Below are positions 7,054 through 61,334 of a DNA stretch of 64,000 bases, one piece after another; the stretch's first letter is position 1, and the number at the start of each line of letters is the position of its first letter. The stretch spans positions 3,434,001 through 3,498,000 of the forward strand of contig NC_092579.1 in the NCBI RefSeq assembly GCF_037975245.1, read 5' to 3'. The notes beneath the pieces were generated by a model. That model saw only the letters and a program-made list of their open reading frames with translations, was not told the origin of the DNA and did not search any database. The position numbers and the translations under genes are program-made. The DNA is from Apostichopus japonicus. Its lineage: Eukaryota > Echinodermata > Holothuroidea > Aspidochirotida > Stichopodidae.

Positions 7054-7533
7054 ATCAGTTAGTATGGATAGAATCTGCTAGTATGGTCAGTTTGGGTGAA
7101 TAAATCTGCTTGTATGGTCAGTTAGTATGGATAGAATCTGCTAGTATGGTCAGTTAGTGTGCACTAAATCTTCTAATATGGTCAGTTAGTATGGATATAA
7201 TCTGCTAGTATGTTCAGTTAGTATGGATAGAATCTGCTAGTATGGTCAGTTTGTATGGATATAATCTGCTAGTATGTTCAGTTAGTATGGATAGAATTTG
7301 CTAGTATGGTCAGTTAGTATGGATAGAATCTGCTAGTTTGTTCAGTTAGTATGGATAGAATCTGCTAGTATGGTCAGTTAGTATGGATAGAATCTGCTAG
7401 TATGGTCAGTTAGTATGGGTAGAATCTGCTAGTATGGTCAGTTAGTATGGATAGAACCTGCTAGTATGGTCAGTTAGTGTGGACTAAATCTGTTAGTATG
7501 GCCAGTTAGTATGGATAGAATCTGCTAGTATCA
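7054..7533 (+). repeat. 32-bp minisatellite in a DHX40 intron, about 15 units
   Basis: The unit is close to GTTAGTATGGATAGAATC followed by TGCTAGTATGGTCA. Copies differ by a few substitutions. It starts about 140 bases after the exon ending at 6911. Confidence 0.9.
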
Positions 7534-10401: not shown

Positions 10402-10645
10402 TGGGTAATCATAACGTACCAATGGGTATTCATAAGGTAGCAATGGGTATTCATAAGGTACCAATGGGTTTTCATAAGGTACCAATGGGTATTCGTAAGA
10501 TGCAATGAGTATTCATAAGGTAGTAATGGGTATTCATAAGATACAATGGGTATTCATAAGGTAGCAATGGGTATTCATAAGATACAATGGGTACTCATGA
10601 CGTAGCAATGGGTATTCATAAGGAACCAATGGGTATTCATAAGAT
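10402..10645 (+). repeat. 21-bp minisatellite in the last DHX40 intron, about 11 units
   Basis: The unit is close to AATGGGTATTCATAAGGTAG plus one base. The array ends about 33 bases before the last coding exon and lies where the acceptor region of that intron should be. Confidence 0.9.
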
Positions 10646-43264: not shown

Positions 43265-45621
43265 CAGTGGTAACCATGCATGTATCTAACATTGAGCAAG
43301 CTGGAGCTAAATTATTGTATCACCCCATAATTTACCATTAGGAAATTATATACAGCTAACATATACCCTGCACCTTGGGTAACCCTCTCCTATCAGAGCC
43401 CTTTGTTTCTGAGTTCTGGTCCCTCAATGGCTTGGCCACCTGGTTCTGCCTGTTCAGAAATACTTCCTGTTGCAACATTTCTGGGAAATGTTCTCTCCTA
43501 GTCTCATAACTAGGTGAGGTTACCTTAATTAGGACAAGGAATTGAGCTGTTTGGTTTCTGCTAAACCAACCTCAACTTTACCACTGTAGTAAGAGAATGT
43601 CTTGTGTCCCTTTGTAAATCCCTTATACATTTGAGATATATGTAGTGTATGTTTTATATGCATAACTGGCATTTTTTAAGGTGAGGGACCTACAAAGTGT
43701 ATGGACACTAGCATCTTATAGGGGAATACACCCTTCGTCATATCATCTCATATACAACCATATGAAATCAGTAACGATAAAGTTACATTGATGGTATGGC
43801 GATCCCCAAATTCTGAGTTTGCTGTTTGGCAAAAATACACCTTACGGAATGTTATGTTCCACAGTTTCAAAACTATGCAATGTATAGTTAATGTGTATAT
43901 AATATGTAATATACTTGTAATAAAAGTCACAATACTATTTCAACTGCTGACGTGTGATAGGTGTCATCTTTCTCTCATCTAGTTTAAACCTGTGTACTTG
44001 AGAAGCTCAAATTTCACAAAGACATCTCTTGGTACATGATCGTAACAAAGTGATGTTTTCTTTTTGAGAGAAGCAGTGGCAAACTGCCTTTTCTGGGGGG
44101 GGGGGGGGGGGTCTGATGAGTGCAAGAGTTGGAACAGAGCATAGGTATATTTTACATAGGCTTATATTTCATGAGGATAAGGCTTGCAACCTACTGTATT
44201 TTGTCTTGAACATTGAAACTTTTGGAGAGATGCCATGGTTCTCTACCCCAATTTGGTCATTTCACACTTAGTTTGCTCCTTGTGTTGCAATGGGCAAGAG
44301 TTATGTCTCTTGCCACCCCAAACCGGTTATCCTAATGGGAGGTGGGTGGGTGGGTGGGAGGGGGGATGGGAGGGCAGTTGAACCTTGTGTTGAGAATGTT
44401 TTTAAAACCTTTTGAAACGATGCTAAATTTGGTCCATATTTGACCATACATGGTACTGTATTTGTTTGGATTAAAAATATTCAGTTTGGGAAAATCCTGA
44501 TCATGTATGTGAGGCAAATCTGAGCGAGCCCCACAGTTGATCTCTGTTACATAAATTTCATAACAACTATTCAACACAAAATCCATTTATCAATACAATT
44601 GATGGACTATTGCACAAAGAATTAATACTTGGTGTGTTACTGGTTAGGAGAGGCATATTATGAACCAGCCATGGATTCAATGAAATTTCTACTGACACTA
44701 TGATATACACTCACTACCATGTGAATTTGTCTTTCAAGCTTGTAGAAATATATAATAAAAAAAAGTATGTGGATGAACAAGTAAGTTGTAAACGTCTGTA
44801 TTTATTGCACAAGAAGGTTCTATGCTTGAAGCATTTTACTGAAAGAATAATAACTTTAACAGTACACTGTCCAATTTTAAGATCAATACTGTACCTGGAA
44901 AGCTTGTTCAAAAAAAACATGGCAGTCATCAAACTAGATGATACTGTCCTATCTCCTACACAAACTTGATTACAAAGTCAGAGTGAACAAGCAATATTTT
45001 GCATAGTCATGGAATGTAATTCAAATTAAACTAACCAGTCCTTATGACATAAGCAGAACATGTTGAAGCACCACTTTACATTTAAACTGTGTGGTTGAGC
45101 CCTGGTATTCATTGTTGGGGTCACCAAAAAGTTTTGGAGGGTTGCCAAGTAAATCAGAAGAGAAAGTAATTGATAGGCTTGAAAAAACATAAATAGCCAA
45201 TATCACCATTTCGGAAAACCAAACATCCTTATATAAATTTCTCAACGGGAATATCTCTTCACGGGAGACCCTTCTCCAGGCCACAATATTCACAACTGGA
45301 CAATCCCCTAGGTAATGAAGATGAAAACTCGGGTCACCAAACAAAAAAGTTTGAAATACCAGCCTTCCCAGGGTGGCTGATGAAGGCTGTTGAAGTATTT
45401 ATGCAGAGACGATTGCATAAAGATAATGTTGGACAACTGATACTTGATACACCTTGGTAAATTTTGCCCTAATCATCCTGAGGGCATTGAATCCATAAAT
45501 TCATCAAATACATCTTGCCACAGAAACACATGACTCAGTTATACTTCTCTCTAGTGCAGCAATGTCCTCTTTGGCGAGGCAGGCCTCATATGTAGTGTAA
45601 TAGCCAGTATTTAAAGGATGC
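43265..45621. other. Intergenic region between convergent units
   Basis: No convincing exon. A long G-run lies near 44095-44112 and a GTGGGTGG-type tract near 44340-44373. A minus-strand AATAAA at 44801-44806 is a candidate CCDC33 poly(A) signal. Confidence 0.45.
43919..43924 (+). terminator. Candidate poly(A) signal of the PIGY-like/145-residue unit
   Basis: AATAAA in GTAATAAAAGTC, 655 bases after the TGA at 43264. Confidence 0.4.
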
Positions 45622-45838: not shown

Positions 45839-46312
45839 CTGCATGTGTAGAGATGAGGGCATAGTTTAGAACAATGGACTTGTCCTGGAGTATGGTTGGC
45901 GTTGAGGTGGCCTCTGGCTCATGTACCTTCTGTCAGCATAATTATCAACCTATCAACAGAACACACACAACATGAATAAATAATCTCTCAAATCAGGCTT
46001 AACCTACTATATGAAAACAAGATATTGTCATATTGTTTACCACTCTTACATGAGAGAGAAGTTTATCAACCGAATAAATAAACACTTTGCACACTCTGTT
46101 CCACACCTCCAACCTCACCACACCGCTTCCCCTCCCATCCCCCCAAAAAAAATCTTTAATTATATGTATCCCTTAAACTCCATAAATCTAAAATTGCTGT
46201 TGTGGTTCTTGCCTTCCTAACAGCTGAGAATTATAGCTGCATCATGTATAAATAAAATAAACTAAACAGGAGCTAGTTTTTGAATGGTTTGAGAATGCCA
46301 TAATCACGGTTG

Positions 46313-48632
46313 CATTTCGGTAAAAGAAGTCATACGATTGCAACATACACACTGATTGCTCTTGTCAACTAACATTTCGATATGAGAAGTCATACAATTG
46401 CAACTTTCGTACTGATTGCTCATCTCAACTTACATTCCGATATGAGAAGTCATACGGTTGCAACTTACATACTGATTGCTCATCTCAACTTACATTTCAT
46501 TTATGAGAAGTCATACGGTTGAAACTTACATACTGATTGCTCATCCCAACTTACATTCCGTTATGAGAAGTCATATGGTTGCACCTTACATACTGATTGC
46601 TCATGTCAACTTACATTCCGATATGAGAAGTCATACGGTTGCAACTTACGTACTGATTGCTCATCTCAACTTACATTTCATTTATGAGAAGTCATACGGT
46701 TGAAACTTACATACTGATTGCTCATCCCAACTTACATTCCGTTATGAGAAGTCATATGGTTGCACCTTACATACTGATTGCTCATGTCAACTTACATTCC
46801 GATATGAGAAGTCATATGGTTGCACCTTACATACTGATTGCTCATGTCAACTTACATTCCGATATGAGAAGTCATACGGTTGCAACTTACGTACTGATTG
46901 CTCATCTCAACTTACATTTCATTTATGAGAAGTCATACGGTTGAAACTTACATACTGATTGCTCATCCCAACTTACATTCCGTTATGAGAAGTCATACGG
47001 TTGCAACTTACGTACTGATTGCTCATCTCAACTTACATTTCATATATGAGAAGTCATACGATTGAAACTTACATACTGATTGCTCATCTCAACTTACATT
47101 TCATGAGAAGTCATACGGTTGAAACTTACATACTGATTGCTCATGTCAACTTACATTCCAATATGAGAAGTCATATACGTTCGCTATTTGCATACTGATT
47201 GCTCATCTCAACTTACATTCCGATATGAGAAGTCATACGGTTGCTACTTACGTACTGATTGCTCATCTCAACTTACATTTCGATATGAGAAGTCATATGG
47301 TTGCAACTTAGTAACGTACTGATTGCTCATCTCAACTTATATTCAGATATGAGAAGTCATACAGTTGAAACTTACATACTGATTGCTCATCTCAACTTAC
47401 ATTTCATATATGAGAAGTCATACGGTTGAAACTTACATACTGATTGCACAAGTCATATACATTCCGATATGAGAAGTCATATACGTTCGCTATTTACATA
47501 CTGATTGCTCATGTCAACTTACATTCTGATATGAGAAGTCATATGGTTGCAACTTACGTACTGATTGCTCATCTCAATTTACATTCCGATATGAGAAGTC
47601 ATACAGTTGCTACTTACATACTGATTGCTCATCTCAACTTACATCTCCATTTGAGAAGTCATAAGGTTGCTACTTACATACTGATTGCTCATCTCAACTT
47701 AAATTCCGATATGAGAAGTCATACGGTTGCTACTGTACTTACACACTGATTGCTCATCCCAACTAACAATCCGATATGAGTAGTCATACAGTTGCAACTT
47801 ACATACTGATTGCTCAACTTACATTCCGATATGAGAAGTGATACAGTTGCTACTTACATACTGATTGCTCATCTCAACTTACATTCCGATATGAGAAGTT
47901 ATACGGTTGCTACTTACATACTGATTGCTCATCTCAACTTACATTTCGATATGAGAAGTCATATGGTTGAAACTTACATACTGATTGCTCATGTCAACTT
48001 ACATTCCAATATGAGAAGTCATATACGTTCGCTATTTACATACTGATTGCTCATCTCAACTTACATTCCGATATGAGAAGTCATACGGTTGCTACTTACG
48101 TACTGATTGCTCATCTCAACTTACATTTCGATATGAGAAGTCATATGGTTGCAACTTAGTAACGTACTGATTGCTCATCTCAACTTATATTCAGATATGA
48201 GAAGTCATACAGTTAAAACATACATACTAATTGCTCATCTCAACTTACATTTCATATATGAGAAGTCATACGGTTGAAACTTACATACTGATTGCACAAG
48301 TCATATACATTCCGATATGAGAAGTCATATACGTTCGCTATTTACATACTGATTGCTCATCTCAACTTACATTCCGATATGAGAAGTCATACAGTTGCTA
48401 CTTACATACTGATTGCTCATGTCAACTTACATTCCGATATGAGAAGTTATACGGTTGCTACTTACATACTGATTGCTCATCTCAACTTACATTTCGATAT
48501 GAGAAGTCATATGGTTGCTACTTACATACTGATTGCTCATGTCAACTTACATTTCGATATGAGAAGTCATACGTTCGCTATTTACATACTGATTGCTCAT
48601 CTCAACTTACATTTCGATATGAGAAGTCATAC
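46313..48632. repeat. 60-bp satellite, about 38 units, in the last CCDC33 intron
   Basis: The plus-strand unit is close to TTCCGATATGAGAAGTCATA, then CGGTTGCAACTTACATACTG, then ATTGCTCATCTCAACTTACA. Units vary by a few bases. Because 60 is a multiple of 3, long artificial frames run through it. On the gene strand each unit has two GTAAGT motifs and one GTATGACTTCTC. Blocks of 181 bp and about 848 bp are themselves repeated. Confidence 0.95.
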
Positions 48633-48742
48633 TGCTGTTCAAGAGGCGGGAGTGTTCGATATCGGCCTGGATCTCTATCACTGTCCAGGTTCAGTTGCAT
48701 GGATGTTTTTTCTCTTCCCCATTCTCTTGCCTTTTCTACAAT
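48633..48742 (-). CDS. CCDC33: CCDC33 exon abutting the 60-bp satellite
   Basis: IVEKAREWGREKTSMQLNLD, then RYRTLPPLEQ. Matches the RWGREKQ block. The donor GTATGA is itself the first satellite sequence. The next GTAAGT, 22 bases on, is a competing donor but leaves phase 0, which does not fit the last exon. Confidence 0.75.
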
Positions 48743-56544: not shown

Positions 56545-56687
56545 CTTGCAGATTGGAGTGATTCTGGTGGTAATCTTGTTGGGATGAGCTCATCCCCATG
56601 TTTTTGATCGGCTATGACCACCCTATCCAAGAGATTCTGCATGGCGTTGTAAGGCGGAGAGGACGTACTGGCATTGTCAATCTTAGG
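56545..56687 (-). CDS. CCDC33: CCDC33 exon, linker
   Basis: PKIDNASTSSPPYNAMQNLL, then DRVVIADQKHGDELIPTRL. The acceptor is AACCTGCAG and the donor is GTACTC. Ends with AG that joins a G in the next exon. Confidence 0.78.
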
Positions 56688-60336: not shown

Positions 60337-61203
60337 TTTGCACTGATCAGGATGGTTGTAACATACCCTGAGTCTTCCATATCCATTCCAGGCAGGAGGT
60401 GGTTGGGGTTGTCTCAGAGGTACGTGGGAGGGGTGTTTTTGATATTATTGGTGACAGTAACTTTGCACTCATCAGAATGGTTGTAACATACCCTGAGTCT
60501 TCTATATCCATTCCAGGCAGGAGATGGTTGGGGTTGTCTCAGGGGTACGGGGAGGGGTGTTTTTGATATTATTGGTGACAGTAACTTTGCACTCATCAGA
60601 ATGGTTGTAACATACCCTGAGTCTTCTATATCCATTCCAAGCAGGAGGTGGTTGGTGTTGTCTCAGAGGTACGTGGGAGGGGTGTTTTTGATATTATTGG
60701 TGACAGTAACTTTGCACTCATCAGAATGGTTGTAACATACCCTGAGTCTTCTATATCCATTCCAAGCAGGAGGTGGTTGGGGTTGTCTCAGAGGTACGTG
60801 GGAGGGGTGTTTTTGATATTATTGGTGACAGTAACTTTGCACTCATCAGAATGGTTGTAACATGCCCTGAGTCTTCTATATCCATTCCAGGCAGGAGATG
60901 TTTGGGGTTGTCTCAGGGGTACGGGGAGGGGTGTTTTTGATATTAATGGTGACAGTAACTTTGCACTGATCGAATGGTTGTAACATACCCTGAGTCTTCT
61001 ATATCCATTCCAGGCAGGAGATTTTTGGGGCTGTCTTAAGGGTACGGGGAGGGGTGTTTTTGATATTATTGGTGACAGTAACTTTGCACTCATCAGAATG
61101 GTAGTAACATACCCTGAGTCTTCTATATCCATTCCAGGCAGGAGATGGTTGGGGTTGTCTCAGGGGTACGGGGAGGGGTGTTTTTGATATTATTGGTGAC
61201 AGT
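60337..61203. repeat. 124-125-bp minisatellite, about 7 units, at a CCDC33 exon-intron junction
   Basis: Each unit holds TTTGCACTCATCAGAATGG, then CATACCCTGAGTCTTCTATA, then GGAGGGGTGTTTTTGATATT. On the gene strand every unit carries CTCAGG|GTATGT, the donor used by the exon ending at 61113. The rightmost unit overlaps coding sequence. Confidence 0.92.
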
Positions 61204-61334
61204 CTGTTCCTCAGTCTATCCTCTGTTCTGTTTATCTGTTTCTTGTACTCTTCGGCTGCTGGTTCTTGATGGCAGAATGACTCGAGGCTCGGCAAGAATT
61301 CAGGAGAAGAGCTAGATATTGCAGACTCTATGTT
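61113..61334 (-). CDS. CCDC33: CCDC33 exon whose 3' end is amplified as a minisatellite
   Basis: 74 codons in phase 0. The first part (SPEFLPSLESFCHQEPAAEE and RTEDRLRN) looks like ordinary CCDC33 linker. The last part (KTPLPVPLRQPQPSPAWNGY) lies in the first unit of the 124-bp array and ends at a GTATGT donor. An earlier donor GTCACC would leave the wrong phase, so this end is preferred. Confidence 0.65.

Follow-up and report, generated by a model that had tools for sequence, protein, structure and literature searches.

Genes and Exons at the Locus

The window, that is, the whole stretch of 64,000 nucleotides of sea-cucumber DNA that was analysed, contains a gene on the minus strand whose exons were recognised by eye (..LTSTAAAEKLMKELQLEKAKKRILSLEKE followed by IVEKAREWGREKTSMQLNLDSDRDPGRYRTLPPLEQQ.., with matching phases) and whose proposed last intron holds a tandem array of 60-bp units. 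The original prediction named this gene CCDC33, a name for which we found no confirmation: Pfam gave only weak coiled-coil matches below the cut-offs and the PDB none that was useful, and no Pfam family was found in three frames of the 10 kb upstream of the right end of the window (L004). A search of Rfam gave no matches at gathering scores. The presence of a LUC7-family gene nearby, claimed at the same time, was borne out: it lies downstream of the array on the minus strand, and PF03194 was above cut-off in all three frames searched. We found no link between this neighbour and the 60-bp array. Upstream of the array gene, on the same strand, lies what we take to be a tRNA-dihydrouridine-synthase-like (DUS1L-like) gene (L005-L006).

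At its right edge the array meets an open, coding-like minus-strand exon that begins at 48742, either inside this exon or where it ends. In the model that we favour, this penultimate exon would span positions 48611-48742 (minus strand; acceptor TTCTTCCAG, open frame, phase 0), would encode IVEKAREWGREKTSMQLNLDSDRDPGRYRTLPPLEQQ followed by YDFSYRN, and would end at the donor AAT/GTAAGT, whose GTAAGT (48605-48610) is the first in the array; the first repeat unit would then begin with the final 22 nt of this exon. The exon had earlier been ended at 48633, with GTATGA (48627-48632) as the donor. This choice is probably wrong and the authentic donor is probably AAT/GTAAGT after 48611, given that GCA/GTATGA scores -2.0 and AAT/GTAAGT +4.0 with a generic matrix, and that the frame stays open for seven codons (YDFSYRN) over the 22 nt between them. 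Eight other proposed donors of the gene and its neighbours score from -1.4 to +4.5 with the same matrix; one of them, GAG/GTATTA (-1.4), is apparently used in this gene, so that some room is left for GTATGA. Codon usage gives the seven unit codons no support, as 93% of 5548 open null windows equal or exceed their score. Under either reading, the repeat unit of the inferred gene model would contain the gene's own donor; a donor after 48611 would place 22 nt of exon in the unit, and one after 48633 none.

The proposed last coding exon (45866-45949, minus strand) starts as TTCTGTTGATAG/GTTGAT at 45949, where TTCTGTTGATAG is the acceptor, can be joined to the favoured donor in phase 0, and would supply the short C-terminus VDNYADRRYMSQRPPQRQPYSRTSPLF and the stop; in a simple scan of 20 acceptor/donor combinations it came sixth. 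When the genome was searched with the joined C-terminal peptide, the three exons of this gene were the only matches. A candidate polyadenylation signal of the gene, AATAAA, is located at 44801-44806 on the minus strand.

Structure and Extent of the 60-bp Array

The 60-bp satellite claimed by the original prediction was confirmed. TRF places it at 46325-48632, with 38.2 copies and 86% matches, and 39 units, the last one partial, could be cut out and aligned; they are arranged head-to-tail, for a total of about 38 units on the minus strand. The left edge is ragged, and in the alignment a partial unit extends to about 46313. On the gene strand the consensus is GTATGACTTCTCATATCGGAATGTAAGTTGAGATGAGCAATCAGTATGTAAGTTGCAACC, which begins with GTATGACTTCTC and contains two GTAAGT motifs spaced 25 bp apart. 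The statement that GTATGACTTCTC recurs in every unit was too strong, as it occurs exactly 21 times among the 39 aligned units; at unit position 1, G was found in 26 of the 39 and A in 12. A higher-order structure of the kind expected of unequal exchange is also visible: shifted by 843 bp, the array aligns with itself over 1455 positions at 90.7% identity.

The whole genome was searched with two unit lengths, a search in which very common words were skipped and only the best candidates were scored, and all 22 matches fell inside the array itself. A dispersed satellite or a transposon-borne family was therefore rejected as its source. A coding array was rejected as well, since the gene-strand frame closes at a TGA directly after the first GTAAGT. 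Long open frames are present on the plus strand of the array and would be due to the 60-bp period.

Splice Signals in the Array

GTAAGT occurs 55 times exactly on the gene strand of positions 46313-48633 and never on the opposite strand, and 20 and 16 times on the two strands in the rest of the window. The earlier estimate of about 70 motifs is corrected to these 55 exact ones. Strand purity itself is an automatic consequence of tandem copying.

Donors and acceptors were scored with a generic matrix, with an acceptor threshold of 3.5. By this measure 29 gene-strand donors of the array, the favoured AAT/GTAAGT among them, equal or exceed the score of that site, and strong donors reach a density of 12.6 per kb; the two strands of the rest of the window have 0.91 and 0.65 per kb. 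On the same strand the array has no acceptor of 3.5 or more, its best scoring 0.6; elsewhere in the window the acceptor densities are 1.28 and 1.91 per kb. With donors present and no acceptor-like site, no cryptic exons of the array's own are expected, and alternative donors are possible. When 8 of the 55 GTAAGT motifs were followed as donors, the favoured one led to the full C-terminus and all seven others to a protein ending in ..YRNVS. The common stop of these seven is the TGA directly after the first GTAAGT, which lies at least 51 nt before the junction. Stop codons more than about 50 nt upstream of a junction are recognised by nonsense-mediated decay (the 50-nt rule), and most transcripts from alternative donors would therefore be targets of decay.

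Neither the conservation nor the genomic frequency of the motifs points to selection on them. The donor columns of the alignment have 1.83 mismatching units per column versus 2.73 elsewhere in the unit, and 25 of the 60 circular placements of the donor mask were conserved equally or better, so that the two GTAAGT motifs show no extra conservation. Triplets of GTAAGT with 18-48 bases between the motifs number 5178 + 3833 genome-wide, against 5783 + 5800 for the pattern read backwards. GTAAGT enrichment as a sign of function was rejected on both counts.

A Second Array in the Same Gene

TRF detected a second array in this gene, at 60337-61203 on the minus strand, with seven copies of 125 bp and 95% matches. 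It appears to copy the end of an exon, the donor and the start of the intron: its unit corresponds to the last 91 nt of the exon (by the TRF edge), the donor AGG/GTATGT and the intron start, after which exon sequence begins again. The exon concerned (61113-61334, minus strand; acceptor TTCTTCTAG, 74 open codons) has the first unit of the array as its 3' 91 nt (..DRLRNRLSPIISKTPLPVPLRQPQPSPAWNGYRRLR) and joins the next exon, at 56687, in phase 0. Copies 4, 5, and 7 of the seven share a frame-breaking insertion of one base that is absent from the first copy. Codon usage was neutral for the 30 repeated codons, whose score is equalled or exceeded by 48% of 1078 null windows.

Arrays Elsewhere in the Window and the Genome

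TRF was also run on 214 kb of joined sequence, comprising the window and its flanks of 120 kb and 30 kb, and arrays scoring below 150 were excluded from the counts. Exons next to arrays were identified by eye, on the basis of open frames of at least 33 or at least 30 codons, so that some exons may have been missed in the following numbers. Fifteen arrays scored 150 or more: four in the window, two of which are junction arrays, and 11 outside it, one of which was recognised as junction-spanning; 12 of the 15 were not so recognised. One in 11 may be the share expected of random tandem duplications. As to the remaining arrays of the window, a 32-bp array at 7055-7531 starts about 145 nt past a likely donor (at about 6911), and a 21-bp array at 10402-10643 lies just before a likely acceptor (at about 10679); no copying of exon sequence was seen in either.

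Acceptor junctions can be duplicated too. At C19:3427574-3428055 (L020 3574-4055), three copies of 160 bp with 99% identity contain the end of an intron of a DEAH-helicase gene, the acceptor and 54 nt of the following exon; the sequence at the acceptor is DILFGLVKQLFLSGHKTK, and the last copy alone runs on into the exon. This exon matches Pfam DEAD with 24.6 bits (E 2.4e-5), just below the cut-off of 26. Given its 99% identity the array is probably young. A low-complexity array of the TTCTA type (L020 3027-3287) lies past the donor side of apparently the same helicase intron.

For C1, 12 GTAAGT clusters were among the matches listed, and 11 of them were examined, the exception being the single match at C1:18259; two large 18-bp arrays are represented by their flanks alone. 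Among these matches, 5 of the 11 arrays examined begin at or in an exon donor and 6 do not, as far as seen. The five include 29 nt of an acid phosphatase exon (L022 2542-2711; PDB E 8.8e-7, Pfam 20.7 bits, just under the cut-off), 6 nt of a cortactin-repeat exon (L023 2164-2339), no exon sequence at all at a macroglobulin TED domain (L024 1808-3215), 16 nt of a TIL-domain exon (L026 1404-1629), the last three identified by Pfam, and 32 nt of an exon recognised by eye, with no Pfam match (L029 1693-2418). Controls were picked by the reversed motif. Among the matches listed there were 14 such clusters, of which 2 single matches and 6 microsatellite-like clusters were left out; of the 6 examined, one (L040) consists of an array that fills nearly the whole piece, so that its flanks were hardly seen, and one (L041 628-1144) starts at a donor, 12 nt inside a likely exon with the donor GTGAGT that was recognised by eye and has no convincing Pfam match. 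Five of 11 and one of 6 are too few for a difference between GTAAGT and control arrays. Thus junction arrays recur in the sea-cucumber genome, and we claim no enrichment.

An intron-poor, creatine-kinase-like gene, with a frame of 989 codons and three kinase matches, is present twice in C20:18443595-18477417 (L030-L033), the copies lying about 31 kb from each other. It resembles the flagellar creatine kinase of sea urchins. An arginine-kinase gene of this genome has exons that agree with PDB 3ju5, the enzyme of the sea cucumber Apostichopus japonicus, at all 213 residues compared; a published annotation of this species lists 19,828 genes (PMC10344927). GFP, used as a marker of lancelets, had no match in this genome, nor did it give a signal in 14 control genomes.

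Discussion

The most plausible account of the 60-bp array, and one that we consider likely, is that of a minisatellite of the mirage type, produced by tandem duplication across a splice donor, expanded to about 38 units and read by the splicing machinery from its outermost donor. The duplication would have taken in a unit that begins at or just inside the exon and runs across its donor, presumably the 3' 22 nt of the penultimate exon, AAT/GTAAGT and the start of the intron, and unequal exchange would later have expanded it to the present number. The outermost donor, which is also the first, would normally be used, the other copies staying in the intron and drifting nearly neutrally, and the wrong choice of an inner donor would yield the protein truncated after ..YRNVS, mostly exposed to nonsense-mediated decay. 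Near-neutral expansion is the best reading of the array. It is based on the array itself, on the finding of no other locus with this unit, on strand-pure donors with no acceptor-like site, and on similar arrays at exon edges; the codon usage of both arrays and the rank of the proposed last exon speak against it. The proposal that the array grew from donor-proximal sequence is supported, and an origin of the same kind is seen for the second array of this gene and for arrays in several others.

The alternatives differ in how far they depart from this account. The nearest one retains GTATGA as the end of the exon at 48633, the array then being wholly intronic and starting at the donor without any exon bases; it is a variant of the mirage explanation, compatible with its main claim, and we think it unlikely. 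The TRF boundary at 48632 agrees with it, as do the L024 array, which starts exactly at a donor with 0 nt of exon, the weak donor seemingly used in this gene and the lack of favour for the extra seven codons in codon usage, but all this has to be set against a far better-scoring donor that the open frame reaches 22 nt further downstream. We likewise doubt that an ordinary intronic minisatellite has come into contact with the donor by chance. Arrays abound in the genome, as do GTAAGT clusters, and most strong arrays of the 214 kb were not seen to span a junction; however, two arrays of one gene reach exon ends, as do, among the C1 matches listed, five of the 11 GTAAGT arrays and one of the six control arrays.

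Two further proposals concern what the copies do in the transcript. Frequent use of the inner donors, which would produce an exon ladder of 132, 192, 217, 252, 277 nt and so on and the truncated ..YRNVS protein, seems to us somewhat less probable still. Of two equal donors the intron-proximal one often wins, and 28 further donors here match or surpass the favoured authentic one in score, whereas the splicing of lancelet mirages is reported as regular in two studies (PMC3087553, PMC3902484). The idea of a decoy or U1-binding array, put forward in the original prediction, found no support. Such an array would regulate splicing or guard the transcript from early polyadenylation, and the abundance of sense motifs, the high density of strong donors and a proposed last intron with no AATAAA and a single ATTAAA (at 46160) would all suit it. 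Nevertheless, the donor mask is conserved no better than many of its circular placements, GTAAGT clusters are not enriched genome-wide, and strand purity follows automatically from tandem copying; we therefore regard a functional role of this kind as highly improbable.

An intron with 28 further donors of at least equal score, in near-identical local sequence, amounts to a natural experiment on donor choice, in which position, exon definition and later decay could be weighed against each other. Arrays of this kind may also mislead gene prediction, as the donor originally chosen for this exon suggests. It is conceivable, though in our opinion rather doubtful, that tandem duplication across splice junctions, and across donors above all, is frequent in sea cucumbers as it is in lancelets, and perhaps coupled to transcription or splicing. 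If so, thousands of genes would carry ladders of equal donors, in which the choice would not rest on local donor sequence and would fall to exon context, transcription order or mRNA decay.

Several known systems share features with the array. Many sense U1-type motifs within introns are characteristic of U1 telescripting and of decoy donors. The array has the same abundance of such motifs in its intron; it differs in that they carry no sign of selection.

The name mirage reportedly goes back to a paper of 2002. It was coined for the Adh3 gene, according to a later study, where mirages are described as minisatellite-like tandem repeats across exon-intron boundaries in lancelets, including those of the globins BflGb6 and BflGb9 (PMC3087553). 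The same source reports one globin locus with six and three mirage units in its two haplotypes, and its Adh3 data and globin RT-PCR suggest that mirages are spliced regularly. Both 5' and 3' boundaries can be affected, with units from 10 to about 160 bp (PMC3087553; PMC3902484); the second paper adds a mirage in PGBD5 and cites troponin C. Minisatellites in the introns of fish genes are described in a sea bream study whose available sections make no statement on the crossing of a splice junction (PMC3045353). A search of the open-licence literature, which covered minisatellites at splice sites in sea urchins and in general as well as sea-cucumber minisatellites, found no mirages outside lancelets, and a search on competing donors gave no papers.

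Intron gain by tandem duplication of AG/GT sites, the Rogers model, is cited in the lancelet globin study (PMC3087553). It resembles the present case in the tandem duplication of sequence that includes splice signals, and differs in that the best acceptor of the 60-bp array scores 0.6; with no acceptor-like site, neither a new intron nor a new exon is expected within the array. The sea-cucumber array also stands apart from the lancelet mirages in several respects: it belongs to an echinoderm, it comprises about 38 units with 55 GTAAGT motifs in one array, and its units, which we know from a single assembly, provide donors and no acceptor-like site. Like the lancelet mirages, it consists of head-to-tail units that copy a splice site, and, as far as we have searched, it is a probable mirage-type array new to the phylum Echinodermata and an unusually long one.
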